Assembly: GCF_000012745.1 (NCBI RefSeq)
Contig: NC_007404.1
Location: 2,542,001-2,606,000 of the forward strand
DNA length: 64,000 bases
Reading direction: 5' to 3'
Origin: Thiobacillus denitrificans ATCC 25259
GTDB taxonomy: Bacteria > Pseudomonadota > Gammaproteobacteria > Burkholderiales > Thiobacillaceae
The notes beneath the pieces are model-generated. The model was given only the letters and a program-made list of their open reading frames with translations. It was not told where the DNA came from and ran no database searches. The position numbers and the translations under genes were made by a program. Position 1 is the first letter of the stretch. Each line of letters begins with the position of its first letter. Positions 14,929 through 49,675 of the stretch are shown here, piece by piece.

Positions 14929-15003
14929 ACCTATCCCCTAACAACGTTTTGTTTGCAAATCGAACGCGAACCGAATTCGATTTGGAAACAAGCCGGAATC
15001 GGC

Positions 15004-15024
15004 GCCGTCCGCTAAGCGGACGGC
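15004..15024 (-). other. Perfect hairpin in the dsrC-dsrM gap
   Basis: GCCGTCCGC (15004-15012) and GCGGACGGC (15016-15024) form a perfect 9-bp stem with a 3-base loop, 17 bases after the dsrC stop on the minus strand. No T-tract follows. It may stabilise the 3' end of a dsrC-containing mRNA or partly terminate transcription, which would fit the high DsrC levels known in sulfur oxidisers. Confidence 0.55.
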
Positions 15025-15041
15025 CCGATGGCTACAACTTC

Positions 15042-16475: not shown

Positions 16476-16517
16476 GGCTACTCAAACTCCGAAAAATCCA
16501 GTCATTGTTATCGGGGA

Positions 16518-16546
16518 CTCGCCGGAGCCACAATGGCTCCGGCGAG
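16518..16546 (-). other. Perfect 12-bp hairpin in the dsrB-dsrE gap
   Basis: CTCGCCGGAGCC (16518-16529) and GGCTCCGGCGAG (16535-16546) form a perfect 12-bp GC-rich stem with a 5-base loop between the dsrB stop and the dsrE start. There is no T-run in the minus-strand direction, so an mRNA-stabilising or processing role is more likely than full termination. Confidence 0.6.
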
Positions 16547-16567
16547 CGTGACTGCCTCCCAGCCCGC

Positions 16568-17638
16568 TCAGAAGCGGATGTGCGCAGACGCGTTCAGGTT
16601 GTAGCGGCCACCGCGCCAGTTATCGATGTGATACTTGGTGAAGGGCAGACCGGTCTTCTCGAAGAACGCGGGCCAACCGATACGGTCGATCCAGTCGATC
16701 ATGCGCTCCCACGGCTTGCCGTCTTCCTTGTAGGTCGCGAGGATCTTCTTGACCACTTCGGCGACTTCGGGCCAACGCGGGGCGTTGTTCGGCAGGCCGG
16801 CAGCGACCAGCTTGTGGAAGGTCGGCTTGGAGCGGGCGTTCGAGTTCTTGCCGCCAACCCAGATCGCGATCTTCGAGTGCTCGGGATCGTTGATCTGCAT
16901 CGGCGGGCAGGGCGGGAAGCAGGCGCCGCAGCAGATGCACTTCTTCTCGTCGACTTCCAGCGAGGGCTTGCCGTTCACCAGAGCGGGACGGATCGCAGCA
17001 ACCGGGCAGCGGGCAACGACGGACGGACGCTCACACACGTTGGCGACCAGATCGTGGTTGATCTTCGGCGGCTTGGTGTGCTGGACGATGATGGCGATGT
17101 CAGCCTGGCCGCCGCAGTTGATTTCGCAGCAGGAGGTCGACAGCTTGACGCGGTTTGGCATCTCGCACTTGACGAAGTCGTCGTACAGCTCGTCCATCAG
17201 CGCCTTGACCACGCCGGAGGCGTCGGTGCCGGGGATGTCGCAGTGCAGCCAGCCCTGGGTGTGGGCGATCATCGACACCGAGTTCGCGGTGCCGCCGATG
17301 GGGTAACCCTTGTCGGAGAGCGCCTTGATCAGCGGCTCGACCTTGGAACCGTCGGCCACCATGTATTCGATGTTGGAACGCGCAGTGAAACGCACGAAGC
17401 CGTCGCCGTATTGGTCGGCGATGTCAGCCAGTTCACGGATCGTGTAGTGATCCATCTGACGCGCCGTACCGGCCTTGACCGTCCAGATCTCATCGCCGGA
17501 CTCAGCACGGTGATACAGAACACCCGGCTTGGGGTGGCTGTGGAAAGCCCACTTGCCGTAGTTCTTCACCATCACGGGGTGCATGTAGGGCATCGGATCG
17601 GGCGCGCCGGATTCGATGGGCGGACGTAGTTCAGCCAT
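16568..17638 (-). CDS. dsrB: DsrB, beta subunit of oxidative dissimilatory sulfite reductase
   Basis: A 356-residue protein. The siroheme/[4Fe-4S] region carries cysteines in LSTSCCEINCGG (Cys170, Cys171, Cys175). An inserted ferredoxin domain has Cys211 and the CICCGACFPPC group (Cys234, 237, 240, 244). With DsrA it forms the alpha2-beta2 enzyme that, in sulfur oxidisers, oxidises DsrC-bound sulfur to sulfite in the cytoplasm. Start ATG at 17638. The length is normal for DsrB and no motif is missing. The oxidative direction is inferred from the accompanying dsrEFH and dsrL. Confidence 0.97.
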   Translation of the reverse strand: MAELRPPIESGAPDPMPYMHPVMVKNYGKWAFHSHPKPGVLYHRAESGDEIWTVKAGTARQMDHYTIRELADIADQYGDGFVRFTARSNIEYMVADGSKVEPLIKALSDKGYPIGGTANSVSMIAHTQGWLHCDIPGTDASGVVKALMDELYDDFVKCEMPNRVKLSTSCCEINCGGQADIAIIVQHTKPPKINHDLVANVCERPSVVARCPVAAIRPALVNGKPSLEVDEKKCICCGACFPPCPPMQINDPEHSKIAIWVGGKNSNARSKPTFHKLVAAGLPNNAPRWPEVAEVVKKILATYKEDGKPWERMIDWIDRIGWPAFFEKTGLPFTKYHIDNWRGGRYNLNASAHIRF

Positions 17639-17701: not shown

Positions 17702-19003
17702 TTAAGCAGCGGTCTGCTTGTACTCGTTCCACTTCTCGACTTGCTCGTCCCAGTCGTCCGAACGGAAGTAGGGGTTGGAACGCGGCGCGCTGATCATGTT
17801 GGGGTCGACCGGGATGTCCAGACCTTCGAGGAAGTTGGTCAGGCCGATACGCTCGATCATCTCGCCGGTACGCTCGTGCTCCAGCGCGTTTTCCGCGAAG
17901 AAGTCGATGATGTTGCGGGCCAGATCGTTCAGCTTCTCGAAATCCTCTTCCGACTCGAGCTTCATGAACGGGATCACGACGGTGCCCATGGTCGCACCGA
18001 TCTTCAGCACACCCTTGCCGCCGACGAGGATGCTCACGCCCTTGTCGACACCGGGACGCAGGCCGCCGGGGATGACGTTCAGGCAGTGCATGCAACGCAC
18101 GCAGTTCTTGTTGTCGATGCACAGCGTGTTGCCGTCACCCAGGTTGGCCGCGGACACGGTCTCGCTCGGCGCAAACTTGTCGCTCGCAACGAGGGTGATC
18201 GCCTTGGTCGGGCACTTGCTGATCACGTCGTTGACCAGGTCGTTCATGCCGTGGGCCTTGTAGTAGGCCTGGACCTGCTCTTCGTTGACGCGGATGTTGT
18301 CGCGCCAGGTGCCGATCGTCGCCATGTCGGAGCGCTGGATCGCGTTCACGCAGTCGTTCGGGCAGCCCGAGAACTTGAACTTGAACTTGTAAGGCAGCGA
18401 CGGACGGTGCATGTCGTCGAGGTTGTTGTTGATGACGGTGCGCAGCGCCTTGGCTTCGTCGAAGCAGGACATTTCGCAGCGCGCAGCGCCGACGCAGGAC
18501 ATCGAGGTGCGGAGCGCGGGACCGGCGCCACCGAGGTCGAAGCCCATTTCGTTGAACTCGTCGAAGGCACGCTGCACATCGGCAGTCTTGATGCCCTGGA
18601 ACATGATGTCGCCGGACTGGCCGTGGAAGGCGATCAGGCCCGAACCACCGGTCGCGGACCAAGTGTCACACATCTTGCGCAGCAGATCCGAAGTGTAGTG
18701 CATGCCGGCAGGCGGCTGGATGCGCAGGGTGTGGAATTCGGCAGCCTCGGGGAACAGGGGCTGGTGGTTTTCGTCCTTCAGTTCGGTGAAACGCGGGATC
18801 ACGCCGCCGCCGTAGCCGAACACGCCGACCGTGCCGCCCTTCCAGTAGCCGAACTTGGTCTTGTACGACGTCTCGAGCTGACCCATCAGGTCGACCATCA
18901 TGTCGTTGTCCTTGGCCAAACGCTTCAGCCCGGTCACGAAGCTGGGCCACGGGCCTTTCTCGAGCTCGTCCAGATTGGGCGTATCAATCATTTGCTTTGC
19001 CAT
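17702..19003 (-). CDS. dsrA: DsrA, alpha subunit of oxidative dissimilatory sulfite reductase
   Basis: A 433-residue protein. The siroheme-coupled [4Fe-4S] cluster ligands are complete: C-x5-C at Cys170/Cys176 (SCVGAARCEMSC) and C-x3-C at Cys214/Cys218 (SGCPNDC). The ferredoxin domain has Cys264 and Cys301/304/307 (NCVRCMHC). It is first in the minus-strand dsr run. The ATG at 19003 has AGGAGAG about 6 bases upstream. It is the catalytic partner of DsrB; together they release sulfite from DsrC-bound sulfur and feed electrons to DsrL. No sign of disruption. Confidence 0.97.
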   Translation of the reverse strand: MAKQMIDTPNLDELEKGPWPSFVTGLKRLAKDNDMMVDLMGQLETSYKTKFGYWKGGTVGVFGYGGGVIPRFTELKDENHQPLFPEAAEFHTLRIQPPAGMHYTSDLLRKMCDTWSATGGSGLIAFHGQSGDIMFQGIKTADVQRAFDEFNEMGFDLGGAGPALRTSMSCVGAARCEMSCFDEAKALRTVINNNLDDMHRPSLPYKFKFKFSGCPNDCVNAIQRSDMATIGTWRDNIRVNEEQVQAYYKAHGMNDLVNDVISKCPTKAITLVASDKFAPSETVSAANLGDGNTLCIDNKNCVRCMHCLNVIPGGLRPGVDKGVSILVGGKGVLKIGATMGTVVIPFMKLESEEDFEKLNDLARNIIDFFAENALEHERTGEMIERIGLTNFLEGLDIPVDPNMISAPRSNPYFRSDDWDEQVEKWNEYKQTAA

Positions 19004-19359
19004 TGTTCTCTCCTAGAAAATTTTCGAAATGCCCGCTCAGCCGGCAGCTCAACGGTATTCGAGCATCGTATTGGTTCGGGGACCGCGCGGCCATCATTCT
19101 CATGGGTAAACCTGCTAACCCCTTGCGGTAGGACGATACCTACCCGAAGGGAGTAGGCGGGTTTCCCCAACGCGGTAATGCCCTATTCCGGCGAAGAGTG
19201 CGACATTAGGCGCCGGTCGGGGGCAGTCCGCAGCAATCGATAAGAGTATTAAAATATTGTTGCACACGCAAGCCCCTGGCCCGAGCAGGGTCGAGGAGCC
19301 GGAGCATCGGCGGAACGGCCCGGAACAACGTGATCAACGAAGCGCCAACGCGAGACCCC
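19004..19359. other. 356-bp divergent control region between dsrA and the Cas6-like accessory run
   Basis: No gene is visible here. It should hold the promoter of the dsr run (leftward) and of the accessory genes (rightward). I could not place a convincing sigma-70 -35/-10 pair. The notable content is a cluster of GGTAGG/CCTACC repeats at 19127-19157 and an ATGGGTA at 19102-19108. Confidence 0.6.
19127..19157. promoter_or_regulatory. Candidate operator: nested inverted repeats upstream of dsrA
   Basis: GGTAGG (19127-19132) faces CCTACC (19139-19144) across 6 bases. The second half also forms CCTACCC-GAAG-GGAGTAGG (19139-19157) with a GTAGG arm at 19153-19157. Two overlapping dyads about 125-155 bases upstream of dsrA look like binding sites for a regulator such as a NarL/LuxR-type response regulator; the regulator's identity is inference. 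Confidence 0.45.
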
Positions 19360-19581
19360 ATGCCTGAAATCACTCCTCTCGACAAGCTGCGACTGCCGTT
19401 CGGCGGCCAGGAAATCGAATTCCAGCACCTGACCCACGAGTCCGGCGGCGTGCCGTTTCTGCGCATCCGCATCCGCGAGAACAAACGGTTCACGATCTTC
19501 GACGTGGACCCGGTCAGCGCTCAGGCCTGGGCCGGGATCATGGGCGCCTGGGCAAAGGCGCACGCAGGGGAGGTGCCGTGA
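19360..19581 (+). CDS. Conserved-looking 73-residue protein upstream of the Cas6-like gene
   Basis: I do not recognise this family. The 73-residue product (MPEITPLDKLRLPFGGQEIEF... ending AKAHAGEVP) has no membrane segment, no signal and no cysteine. Alternating hydrophobic residues (FLRIRIRENKRFTIFDV) suggest a small beta-sheet protein. ATG at 19360 is chosen over an in-frame GTG at 19330, which would add ten residues. Its stop overlaps the GTG start of the next gene, so the two are translationally coupled and probably work together. It is divergent from dsrA. Confidence 0.75.
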   Translation: MPEITPLDKLRLPFGGQEIEFQHLTHESGGVPFLRIRIRENKRFTIFDVDPVSAQAWAGIMGAWAKAHAGEVP

Positions 19582-20237
19582 CCTGGGGCGGCTGGCCGGA
19601 AGACAAGCCGGAAGAATATACGCCGCGCCTGATCGACCTGCAGTTCGAGCTGGCCGGCTCGACGATCCCGGCCGACAACGCGCAGATGCTCTGCGACGCG
19701 CTGCTCGGCGTGTTGCCATGGCTCGGTGAGGATCCGGGCAGCGGCATTCAGCACCTCAAGGGCGCCGCAACGAACAGCGGCGACACCGTGCTCAACATCA
19801 ACCGGCGTACCCGGCTGTTCATGCGCGTGCCGAAGACCCGCGTCGACGACATGCAGCGGCTGATTGGCGAGCAACTCGACCTCGGCGGTCACGCCCTGCG
19901 GATCGGCAGCTTCAAAACGCGTGACTTCAGTCCTTTTGCCAACATTTACGCCCACTTTATTGACACCGGCAGCGCCACTGAAGAACAATTCGTGCAGGAC
20001 GTGATGCGCGAACTGGACAGCCGCTTTCAGTTGCGTTGCGGTTTCATCTGCGGCAAACAGCAAACCCTGCAAAGCGCATCGGGGCCCCTGTTCGGCCACA
20101 GCCTGATGTTGCACGACGTCCCGCCGCACAAGTCGCTGCAACTGCAGGACGAGGGCCTGGGGCGAAACCGTCTGTTGGGCTGCGGGATCTTCATCCCGCA
20201 TAAATCCATCGCGCCGGTCATGCCGGCAATTCTTTGA
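19578..20237 (+). CDS. Cas6-like RAMP protein (Cmx6-type), not next to any CRISPR array
   Basis: A 219-residue protein that resembles the Cas6/Cmx6 family described from type I-MYXAN CRISPR systems. Residues 193-203 read GLGRNRLLGCG, an exact fit to the GhGxxxxxGhG glycine-rich loop of Cas6 RNA endonucleases, in the expected C-terminal place. His59 (GIQHLKG) is a candidate catalytic histidine, but I cannot confirm it. The start is GTG at 19578 in a GTGA overlap, with GGGGAGG just upstream. No repeat array or other cas gene is in the window, so a CRISPR role here is doubtful. Its partners are a small protein and a DsrC paralogue beside rDsr, suggesting an RNA-related function tied to sulfur metabolism (inference). 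Confidence 0.75.
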   Translation: MTWGGWPEDKPEEYTPRLIDLQFELAGSTIPADNAQMLCDALLGVLPWLGEDPGSGIQHLKGAATNSGDTVLNINRRTRLFMRVPKTRVDDMQRLIGEQLDLGGHALRIGSFKTRDFSPFANIYAHFIDTGSATEEQFVQDVMRELDSRFQLRCGFICGKQQTLQSASGPLFGHSLMLHDVPPHKSLQLQDEGLGRNRLLGCGIFIPHKSIAPVMPAIL

Positions 20238-20268: not shown

Positions 20269-20601
20269 ATGCCCTACGTTGTGAATGGCGAAGAACTGGA
20301 AACCGGCGAAGAGGACTTCCTGCTGGAAGCGAACTTCAGCGACGACGTCCCGCCCGTCATCGCCGCCAACGAGAAGATCACGTTGACCGACGACCACTGG
20401 ATCGTCATCAACTGGCTGCGCGAGCGCTACAAGGAAGACGGCTCGACCCCGAACTTCCGCAACATGGTCAGCATGCTCGATGAGGAGTATCCGGGCAACG
20501 ACTGGAAGAAAAAGCTCTACGAGCTGTTCCCCAACCAGCCGGCCCGCCAAGGCTGCCGCGTCGCCGGTTTGACCAAGCCCTACGGCAAGGGCGGCTACTG
20601 A
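20269..20601 (+). CDS. DsrC/TusE-family paralogue retaining only the upstream cysteine
   Basis: A 110-residue protein clearly homologous to DsrC (MPYVVNGEELETGEEDFLL; ITLTDDHWIVINWLRERY; KKLYELFPNQPARQGCRVAGLTKP). The C-terminal arm ends TKPYGKGGY: Cys96 matches the upstream CysB, but the penultimate CysA of DsrC and TusE is replaced. It therefore cannot form the DsrC intramolecular disulfide and lacks the cysteine used by TusE. GAAAGGAGAG lies just before the ATG. It follows the Cas6-like gene by 31 bases and is likely in the same transcript. A regulatory or specialised sulfur-carrier role is inference. Confidence 0.9.
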   Translation: MPYVVNGEELETGEEDFLLEANFSDDVPPVIAANEKITLTDDHWIVINWLRERYKEDGSTPNFRNMVSMLDEEYPGNDWKKKLYELFPNQPARQGCRVAGLTKPYGKGGY

Positions 20602-20617
20602 TCCAGGCGCCAGGATC

Positions 20618-20670
20618 TAGGGGCTAGGGGCTAGGGACAGGCATGCCTGTCCCATTATCCCTGGCCCCTA
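20618..20670. repeat. Intergenic inverted repeat with a perfect 20-bp palindrome at its centre
   Basis: Bases 20634-20653 are a perfect palindrome, GGGACAGG-CATG-CCTGTCCC allowing for symmetry. The flanks extend it imperfectly: two tandem GGGGCTA units on the left, CCCTGGCCCCTA on the right. The T-run expected of a terminator is missing. It could end the DsrC-like transcript or be a REP-like dispersed element. Confidence 0.55.
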
Positions 20671-20695
20671 ATTCCTGTTTCCTGATTACCGACCC

Positions 20696-21544
20696 ATGTT
20701 CTCCAACACCCTCGTCAGCACGGAAGACCTGGCCGCGCATCTCGACGACCCGAACTGGGTCGTGCTCGACTGTCGCTTCACGCTCACGGACCCCGGAGCC
20801 GGTCGCGAGGCCTATGAGAAGGCCCATGTCCCGGGCGCGCGCTACGTGCATCTGGACGAAGACCTGTCCGCACCGCCCGGCGAAAAGACCGGCCGCCACC
20901 CCCTGCCCGACGCCGAGTTGCTGAACGAGAAGCTCTGCCGGTGGGGCGTCGGCGTCAACAAGCAGGTCGTCGTCTACGATGACAGCTTCGGCTCGATGGC
21001 GGTGCGCCTATGGTGGCTGATGCGCTGGCTTGGCCACCCGGGTGTCGCGCTACTCGACGGCGGCTACCCGAAGTGGACGCGCGAGAAGCGCCCGGTCAGC
21101 GCCGACGTGCCCGCGCCGCACAAGGCCGCCTGCGCCTGCCTGCCCGAACCGAGTCAGGTCGTCACGGCCGACGAAATCCTGCGCGCCTCGCAGACCGGCG
21201 AGCAGCTGATTCTCGACGCCCGTCCCGACCGGCGCTTCAGCGGCGAGTACGAGCCGCTCGACCCGGTCGCCGGCCACGTTCCTGGCGCGATCAACCGGCC
21301 GTTCGAGGACAACCTCGACCTCGACGGCACTTTCCAGCCGCCCGAGGCGCTGCGCGAGGAGTACCAGGCCCTGCTCAAGGGCCGCGCGCCCTGGCAGGTC
21401 CTGCACATGTGCGGCTCGGGCGTCACGGCGTGCCACAACGTGCTGGCGATGGAAATCGCCGGCCTGCCGGGCTCCCGCCTTTACCCCGGTTCGTGGAGCG
21501 AATGGATCACCGATCCGTCGCGCCCCGTCGCCACAGGAGAATAA
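20696..21544 (+). CDS. sseA: Rhodanese-type sulfurtransferase (3-mercaptopyruvate/thiosulfate sulfurtransferase family)
   Basis: A 282-residue two-domain rhodanese. The N-terminal inactive domain has VVLDCRFTLTDPGAGREAYEKAHVPGA. The C-terminal catalytic domain has the active-site loop MCGSGVTAC, with the nucleophile Cys in CGSGVTA, the form typical of mercaptopyruvate sulfurtransferases (CG[ST]GVT). In this setting it may move sulfane sulfur into the DsrEFH-DsrC relay. There is no signal peptide, so it is cytoplasmic. The gene begins after the palindromic repeat; whether it shares the upstream transcript is unclear. Confidence 0.88.
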   Translation: MFSNTLVSTEDLAAHLDDPNWVVLDCRFTLTDPGAGREAYEKAHVPGARYVHLDEDLSAPPGEKTGRHPLPDAELLNEKLCRWGVGVNKQVVVYDDSFGSMAVRLWWLMRWLGHPGVALLDGGYPKWTREKRPVSADVPAPHKAACACLPEPSQVVTADEILRASQTGEQLILDARPDRRFSGEYEPLDPVAGHVPGAINRPFEDNLDLDGTFQPPEALREEYQALLKGRAPWQVLHMCGSGVTACHNVLAMEIAGLPGSRLYPGSWSEWITDPSRPVATGE

Positions 21545-22169: not shown

Positions 22170-23075
22170 TTGCGCGGCTCTCCCTTCGACCTCGGCAACG
22201 CGTCGGCCTACCGCGCCTGGCGCGACGCCAAGCTCGCCGCCTATCCGCGCAGCGCCGACGAACTCGTCGTGCCGCTCGCCGACCCGCGCCAGTTGACGGC
22301 GGCCGAGACCGCCGCACTCGCAGATCGCTGCGGACGCGCCAACATGGCGATCTACAGCGCGCCGCATCTTCCCGCTGCCGACAAGTCGCTCGCCAGCGAA
22401 CTCGCGCGCCAACTCGGCCTGACCCGGCTCGAAGGCAATTACCTCGCCGACGAGGACGGGCTCTCGAGCATCACGCCGGCCGGCGACGAAGGCACCGTGC
22501 GCGGCGACTACATCCCCTACACGCACAAGCCGATCAACTGGCACACCGACGGCTATTACAACGCGCTCGACCGGCGCATCCTCGGCATGACGCTGCACTG
22601 TGCACAGGACGCCGAGGCAGGGGGCGAGAACGCGCTGCTCGATCACGAAATCGCCTACATCCAGCTGCGTGACACCGATCCCGACTATGTCGCCGCACTC
22701 ATGCAGCCCGACGCGATGACGATTCCGGCGCGCATGGACGAGAACGACATCGCGCGTCCCGCGCAGAGCGGCCCGGTGTTCGCGGTCGACCCGGACCAGG
22801 GCTTCCTGTACATGCGCTACACGGCCCGTACCCGCTCGATCGTCTGGAAGGACGACGCGCTCACGCAATGCGCAGTCAAAGCGCTCACCGAGATCCTTGC
22901 CGGCTCGCCCTACATCCTCAGCGCACGGCTACGGCCCGGTATGGGCCTCGTCTGCAACAACGTGCTGCACACACGCAGCGCGTTTTCCGACTCGCCAGGG
23001 CGTCGCCGCCTGCTCTATCGCGGGCGTTACTACGACCGCCTCGACTTCGCCGCGCGCGGCCGGGGCCGCGGGTAA
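22170..23075 (+). CDS. TauD/TfdA-family Fe(II)/2-oxoglutarate dioxygenase-like protein
   Basis: A 301-residue protein of the TauD/TfdA fold. The iron facial triad appears as HTD in NWHTDGYYNALD and the distal His in NVLHTRSAF; a 2-oxoglutarate-binding Arg is likely in GRRRLLYRGRYYDRL. The substrate is unknown. Taurine or another organosulfonate would fit the neighbours, but that is inference. The start is taken as TTG at 22170, two bases after the upstream stop; the next in-frame Met is at residue 59, too far into the fold. It is the last gene of the plus-strand accessory run. Confidence 0.75.
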   Translation: MRGSPFDLGNASAYRAWRDAKLAAYPRSADELVVPLADPRQLTAAETAALADRCGRANMAIYSAPHLPAADKSLASELARQLGLTRLEGNYLADEDGLSSITPAGDEGTVRGDYIPYTHKPINWHTDGYYNALDRRILGMTLHCAQDAEAGGENALLDHEIAYIQLRDTDPDYVAALMQPDAMTIPARMDENDIARPAQSGPVFAVDPDQGFLYMRYTARTRSIVWKDDALTQCAVKALTEILAGSPYILSARLRPGMGLVCNNVLHTRSAFSDSPGRRRLLYRGRYYDRLDFAARGRGRG

Positions 23076-49569: not shown

Positions 49570-49600
49570 CACGCCCTCCTTTCTGTGCAGAAAAAGAAAA

Positions 49601-49665
49601 CGTGAGCGCCGTTGAAAGGAAGCGTCCCGAGCCTGGCGGGTGAACCGTCGCAGCGCTCCTCGGAA
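49601..49665 (-). promoter_or_regulatory. SAH riboswitch upstream of ahcY
   Basis: The minus strand reads CCGAGGAGCGCTGCGACGG, a variable loop, CCAGGCTCGG, a second loop, then CAACGGCGCTCACG. These are the conserved blocks of the S-adenosylhomocysteine riboswitch. GAGCGC pairs with GCGCTC to form P1, and CCGAG pairs with CTCGG. The start lies about 3 bases from the predicted transcript start below the TAGAAT box. Family knowledge says SAH binding turns the downstream gene on. Confidence 0.92.
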
Positions 49666-49675
49666 CCGAGGCGGC

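Follow-up and report, generated by a model that had tools for sequence, protein, structure and literature searches.

A Cas6-like RAMP protein gene is a regular neighbour of dsrA in many bacteria

Cas6 is the RNA-cutting enzyme of CRISPR immunity. Among its described forms, the Cas6/Cmx6 proteins of type I-MYXAN systems (TIGR02807) are represented here by six cyanobacterial plasmid examples, which lie next to cas3, cas5 and further effector genes; five of the six stretches also contain cas1 and cas2, and spaced-repeat arrays were seen in three of the five loci searched. A further form is the Cas6 of a type I-B CRISPR-associated transposon (PDB 8fcj and 8fcu), described by the record title as part of Cascade. 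The Cas6 of Sulfolobus solfataricus (Sso1437) is, in the excerpted text of its report, a crenarchaeal dimer that produces CRISPR RNA and still cleaves without the canonical histidine (PMC3652601). On the side of sulfur metabolism, the excerpted report on Allochromatium DsrC describes its penultimate cysteine as the residue that carries sulfur (PMC3397948).

The window, by which we mean the whole 64-kb stretch of DNA that was analysed, carries a Cas6-like gene next to dsrA (Table 1). Its product resembles the type I-MYXAN Cas6/Cmx6 proteins in profile family, length and glycine-rich loop, and is 20-27% identical to the six cyanobacterial examples. The ORF matches TIGR02807 (NCBIfam cas6_cmx6) at 3.4e-75 with 252.3 bits, against a curated cut-off of 98.85, and Pfam PF09559 (Cas6) at 1.1e-60 with 205.3 bits (cut-off 26.7); six Cas6 models in PADLOC match as well, and the sequence match in the PDB is 8fcj_B, the transposon Cas6, at 5.5e-12. 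The first-pass annotation, made from the sequence alone, had proposed a Cas6 protein of Cmx6-type length on the basis of the loop GLGRNRLLGCG at residues 193-203, and each of these points holds: the loop is correct as read from the ORF, the cyanobacterial relatives are alike in length, and both family scores lie above their cut-offs. It had also proposed structure prediction as a check, with the lack of any match to RAMP folds counting against the family. The resulting AlphaFold2 model, built from 61 sequences (pLDDT 89.5, pTM 0.83), has a predicted two-domain RAMP fold; it superposes on 8fcu_B and 8fcj_B, the closest solved structure, with TM values of 0.80-0.82 and rmsd of 2.0-2.1, and more loosely on the Pyrococcus and Thermus Cas6 proteins. 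The gene occurs once in its own genome, a single contig of 2,909,809 bases, and is under purifying selection, with a median omega of 0.145 (41 pairs) compared with 0.081 for DsrA and 0.101 for HemA.

Table 1. Features of the dsr-linked locus, in window coordinates.
Feature	Position	Strand	Basis or remark
dsrB-dsrE intergenic hairpin, considered as candidate target	16476..16567	-	MFE -40.0
dsrB	16568..17638	-	ORF; homologues come after dsrA in related loci
dsrA, divergent neighbour	17702..19003	-	TIGR02064 match at genome 2559720-2560973; same placement in related loci
Operator-like dyad TACTCCCTTCGGGTA upstream of dsrA	19141..19155	-	Sole exact match in window
DUF6967 protein, 83 aa	19330..19581	+	PF22295, 103.5 bits; stop overlaps Cas6-like start by 4 bases (GTGA)
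Cas6-like (RAMP) protein, 219 aa, GTG start	19578..20237	+	ORF, profile families and predicted fold
Glycine-rich loop GLGRNRLLGCG, residues 193-203	20154..20186	+	G193, G195, G201 and G203 unchanged across 25 aligned relatives
Codons of H208-K209, PHK motif of the dsr-linked branch	20199..20204	+	H208 in 157/160, K209 in 159/160; CRISPR-linked 0/6
DsrC/TusE-family protein, penultimate cysteine absent, ends GKGGY	20269..20601	+	PF04358, 102.7 bits (cut-off 24.9)
Rhodanese-domain protein, usual downstream neighbour	20696..21544	+	PF00581; 68/82 loci
TauD-like dioxygenase, frequent neighbour	22170..23075	+	PF02668, 69.1 bits; 60/82 loci

Unlike the cyanobacterial genes, which sit among cas genes, the Cas6-like gene is a regular neighbour of dsrA in many bacteria. 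A divergent dsrA lies within 1.2 kb of it in 127 of 133 loci, counted over two sets (51 and 82) that share genomes, and the clustering of orthologues beside dsrA across sulfur oxidisers, which the first-pass annotation had put forward for checking, is therefore observed. In the first set, which includes 30 best-scoring matches and counts the window's own genome twice, the arrangement is found in 50 of 51 loci, the exception (L044) being a contig end. The second set gives 77 of 82; one locus (L058) has its dsrA 4 kb away, and the other four misses are contig ends lying 3 to 1063 bases ahead of the Cas6-like gene, which brings the misses explained by contig ends to five.

The distribution of the gene across genomes follows the same pattern. 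Within the genus, it is present as a single copy in 53 of 56 genomes, a count in which one carrier (G026) has just the terminal piece of the gene, at the edge of a contig, and another (G021) a partial gene, and it is found in 65 of 100 relatives overall. Among 40 genomes of the same order from other families (G060-G099), all eight with a strong dsrA match (E < 1e-40) carry it and none of the 32 others does. A phylum-wide sample of 397 genomes places the gene in 6 of 39 dsrA-bearing genomes and in none of the 358 without dsrA; the 33 dsrA-bearing genomes that lack it all come from other classes. In another order of the same class (that of G451; 47 genomes), the gene is found in 39 of 39 genomes with dsrA and in three of the eight without a dsrA match, the Cas6-like match reaching the family cut-off in 36 of the 47. 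Proximity is looser there, with the two genes within 5 kb of each other in only 24 of the 39 genomes, about 9 kb (G512), 18 kb (G525) or 164 kb (G518) apart on the same contig in others, and on different contigs in 12. A scan of 84,980 species genomes for the motif GCG[IVL]F[VIM]PHK returned 581 stretches, of which 579 encode relatives; the best 80 of the 581 were read. Two more dsrA copies occur in the window's own genome (G000 C1:1388079 and C1:1449796; L191 and L192); in the 10 kb taken around each, seven other dsr-locus genes were sought and none turned up.

No CRISPR-like array was detected in the 64-kb window, where direct repeats amount to only four families, each of two copies no more than 120 bases apart, in agreement with the earlier statement that CRISPR repeats are absent from it. 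A matching array elsewhere in the genome had been named as evidence that would refute a job outside CRISPR; searches of the whole genome found no pairs of the word ATTGAAAS spaced 55-80 bases apart, and the cyanobacterial I-MYXAN repeat type gave six scattered partial matches versus four in a reversed control. Cas1 was also sought in the whole genome and none was found, leaving the Cas6-like gene with neither Cas1 nor an array of the types tried, and with a dsr locus instead. That the gene is a CRISPR remnant, or a Cas6 serving arrays elsewhere in trans, would fit its family membership and the occurrence of Cas1 among the 100 relatives (33 of 65 carriers versus 9 of 35 non-carriers, p = 0.02), a weak association that may be due to the genus make-up. 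However, Cas1 accompanies the gene in only 26 of the 53 carriers within the genus, and this genome's lack of Cas1 and of both array types, together with a locus, residues and charge unlike those of the CRISPR-linked kin, makes either of these very improbable. Regular placement beside dsrA with no visible CRISPR link suggests instead a CRISPR-type protein recruited for sulfur metabolism. Both its family and its tie to the dsr locus have good support, and we are highly confident that a protein of Cas6 fold has here been recruited to the reverse Dsr pathway.

Public annotations nevertheless name the dsr-linked genes CRISPR-associated. Such labels can suggest CRISPR systems where none exist, and they hide a conserved member of the rDsr locus. 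Among open-licence papers, covered by titles and the starts of abstracts, none was found on a dsr-linked Cas6; where Cas6 is mentioned in the parts of the papers checked, it concerns ordinary CRISPR systems or a gene-presence table. A text search of the Dsr synteny paper (PMC10504309) found neither Cas6 nor CRISPR.

Residues and charge also set the dsr-linked proteins apart from their CRISPR-linked kin. The comparison covered 160 dsr-linked rows, redundant in genomes (67 Thiobacillus-like, 63 other betaproteobacterial and 30 gammaproteobacterial), and six CRISPR-linked Cas6 proteins from cyanobacterial cas operons; the seventh plasmid relative, from Gloeobacter, having no adjoining cas genes, was left out of the latter group. 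Histidine at position 50 occurs in four of the six CRISPR-linked proteins, in two of the 30 gammaproteobacterial rows and in none of the 63 other betaproteobacterial or 67 Thiobacillus-like rows. The window protein has glycine at this position and thus lacks the histidine presumed to be the canonical N-terminal catalytic residue. The transposon Cas6 (8fcj) differs in keeping a histidine at the equivalent of position 50, and resembles the window protein in having asparagine at the equivalent of position 34, where histidine is found in 6 of 6 CRISPR-linked, 29 of 30 gammaproteobacterial, 58 of 63 other betaproteobacterial and 1 of 67 Thiobacillus-like rows. Other residues mark the dsr-linked branch, including W48 (156 of 160 rows versus none of the six CRISPR-linked proteins), R77 (160 of 160 versus one of six) and the PHK motif (Table 1). 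The branch is neutral to acidic, with median pI values of 6.2, 6.8 and 7.7 in its groups, whereas the CRISPR-linked proteins are basic (9.4). In a 53-row tree, which contains some long branches and whose root was drawn for display, the dsr-linked rows split from the CRISPR side with support of 100/99. The tree has no outgroup, and the direction from CRISPR to dsr is our inference; the protein would descend from a CRISPR Cas6 and would have given up the maturation of CRISPR RNA.

These differences bear on whether the protein still cuts RNA. Histidine at position 58 is present in 30 of 30 gammaproteobacterial and 56 of 63 other betaproteobacterial rows, and histidine at position 59 in 64 of 67 Thiobacillus-like rows; either could replace the usual Cas6 histidine, and the histidine at position 34 persists in rows other than the Thiobacillus-like ones. 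Because the transposon Cas6 also has histidine at 58, a shifted active site is possible in the dsr-linked proteins, and the example of Sso1437, which likewise departs from the canonical histidine, means that the missing residue is no proof of inactivity. Lacking both the usual histidine and a net positive charge, the protein is more suggestive of a part that binds or regulates than of an ordinary RNA-cutting enzyme, and cleavage is probably weak or absent. We give slightly less than an even chance to a role in binding or regulation in which catalysis is not the main function.

The RNA on which such a protein might act was sought at the dsr locus itself. Strong hairpins between the dsr genes had been reported in the first-pass annotation, and they are real: the one between dsrB and dsrE can be recognised in 71 of the 79 loci carrying the Cas6-like gene, taking a whole-gap folding energy of -15 or below as the criterion (it is absent from seven, and one row is masked), and shows compensatory changes in eight of nine pairs across 19 Thiobacillus-type sequences. 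The same annotation had suggested that the protein processes or binds these hairpins, and this part is not supported. Among seven dsr loci in which dsrE is present and the Cas6-like gene is missing, four also possess the hairpin, as judged by the best 40-base piece just after dsrB, a criterion that differs from the whole-gap one. Since the hairpin is found without the gene and the gene without the hairpin, the structure goes with dsr operons and not with the Cas6-like protein, and this leading candidate for a specific target was ruled out. An active endoribonuclease that cuts the hairpins between dsr genes, thereby setting the ratio of dsrAB to downstream message, lies close to the original suggestion and could draw on the Cas6 fold and glycine loop, on the covariation of a widespread hairpin, and on a histidine at 58 or 59 that could act as the base. 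With hairpin and gene uncoupled, the usual histidine missing and the pI acidic, we regard it as quite unlikely.

Nor did any other RNA qualify as a target. The region upstream of dsrA, aligned for 37 Thiobacillus sequences over 492 columns, yielded weak consensus folds of -10.0 and -20.1 kcal/mol. Strong local hairpins in many of its rows come from an operator-like DNA dyad, and for this reason the region was set aside as an RNA target. The dyad TACTCCCTTCGGGTA looks like a putative binding site for a regulator; a related pattern occurs in 73 of 126 dsrA upstream regions and in none of five shuffles, while matches with two mismatches allowed are at chance level in the window (4 versus 3.64 expected).

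Two RNAs named in Rfam were noted elsewhere in the window. A Moco-II match (RF01713, 44.3 bits) lies at 14993-15036 on the minus strand, directly after dsrC and ahead of the following ORF in that operon, a position that suggests its molybdenum-cofactor name may mislead; as a common feature of dsr loci it was rejected, since 10 others gave no Rfam match that reached the gathering score. A SAH riboswitch (RF01057, 62.9 bits) lies at 49597-49667, also on the minus strand. In addition, a long imperfect inverted repeat built of CTAGGGG units spans 20603-20685, between the DsrC-like and rhodanese genes, for which Rfam returned sub-threshold matches only.

Two small proteins accompany the Cas6-like gene. 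The first belongs to DUF6967, which is present in 63 of the 100 relatives, corresponding to the 65 Cas6-like carriers minus the two with incomplete genes (G021 and G026). In 10 clusters, those of Sulfuricystis multivorans and nine others forming one clade, DUF6967 and the Cas6-like protein are a single protein, and DUF6967 is likely to be its physical partner, as this natural fusion would suggest. Pfam assigns the protein to no family beyond DUF6967, and its predicted order comprises four strands and a helix, a part in which pLDDT varies from 65 to 80 by block. A PC4-type nucleic-acid-binding fold is an idea that this model might accommodate; among the Foldseek matches listed, none covers the predicted four-strand-plus-helix part, and a phmmer search of the PDB returned only consensus TPR proteins over 20 residues, with no stretch significant alone.

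The second companion shares PF04358 and TIGR03342 with the DsrC/TusE family, has 41% identity to the window's canonical DsrC, and differs from the family in its KGGY end and its absent penultimate cysteine. In 146 of 161 loci, the Cas6-like gene is followed within 1.2 kb by a DsrC/TusE-family gene in the same orientation; of the remaining 15, 12 are gammaproteobacterial loci in which the sequence extends 1.0-1.5 kb past the Cas6-like gene, and the rest are L116, L121 and L144. The KGGY end is found in 144 of these 146 neighbours and the penultimate cysteine in none of them, the two others (L108 and L154) not being read to the usual end. Exclusive pairing of the Cas6-like gene with either companion was ruled out by their occurrence without it. 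KGGY proteins are encoded in four dsrA-bearing genomes of other classes that lack the Cas6-like gene (G331, G201, G290 and G264; L203, L206, L207 and L208), with no Cas6-like ORF found within 1.5 kb on either side, and DUF6967 lies beside dsrA in four loci without a Cas6-like gene (L175, L176, L179 and L180).

Two further readings of the protein were considered. In one, a sulfur relay, the Cas6-like protein would hold an RNA, for example a tRNA, for modification by the DsrC/TusE-type and rhodanese proteins encoded next to it, as TusE passes sulfur on for tRNA thiolation in the excerpted account cited above (PMC3397948). The DsrC-like neighbour, however, lacks the very cysteine that carries sulfur in DsrC according to that excerpt, none of the 146 reads showing it, and we consider the relay distinctly improbable. 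In the other, RNA binding has been lost and the RAMP fold serves as a scaffold that binds Dsr proteins. The acidic pI, the absent histidine and the fusion with DUF6967 would suit such a protein, whereas the glycine loop is retained, with R198 within it conserved in 152 of 160 dsr-linked rows; we consider a protein-only scaffold unlikely.

In the explanation that we favour, a Cas6-family RAMP protein acts outside CRISPR and regularly accompanies the reverse Dsr, sulfur-oxidising locus as an accessory, probably in a binding or regulatory capacity, and we give this explanation as a whole about an even chance. The Cas6-like protein and its natural fusion partner DUF6967 may form a small binding module, in which the RAMP groove and glycine loop would hold a specific RNA and thereby tune how the Dsr machinery is expressed or assembled, with the cysteine-less DsrC-like protein perhaps taking part. 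The acidic charge of the Cas6-like protein counts against RNA binding itself. In its fullest form, the proposal would be one of an exapted CRISPR fold: reverse dissimilatory sulfite reductase would have a dedicated nucleoprotein control module made up of the Cas6-like protein, DUF6967 and the cysteine-less pseudo-DsrC, and an enzyme that once processed crRNA would now sense or hold an RNA to govern sulfur oxidation in the beta- and gammaproteobacteria that oxidise sulfur. We offer this version tentatively and consider it rather doubtful. If the protein does serve sulfur oxidation, it would represent a case of a Cas6 lineage recruited outside immunity, and it would offer, next to dsrA, a definite gene that can be deleted to test its role.

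The Gloeobacter relative mentioned above adds a minor observation. On a plasmid of Gloeobacter morelensis (L060), a Cas6/Cmx6 gene with no annotated cas neighbours lies two genes before a gene of the PAPS-reductase family, which is possibly a second non-CRISPR setting of the Cas6/Cmx6 family.
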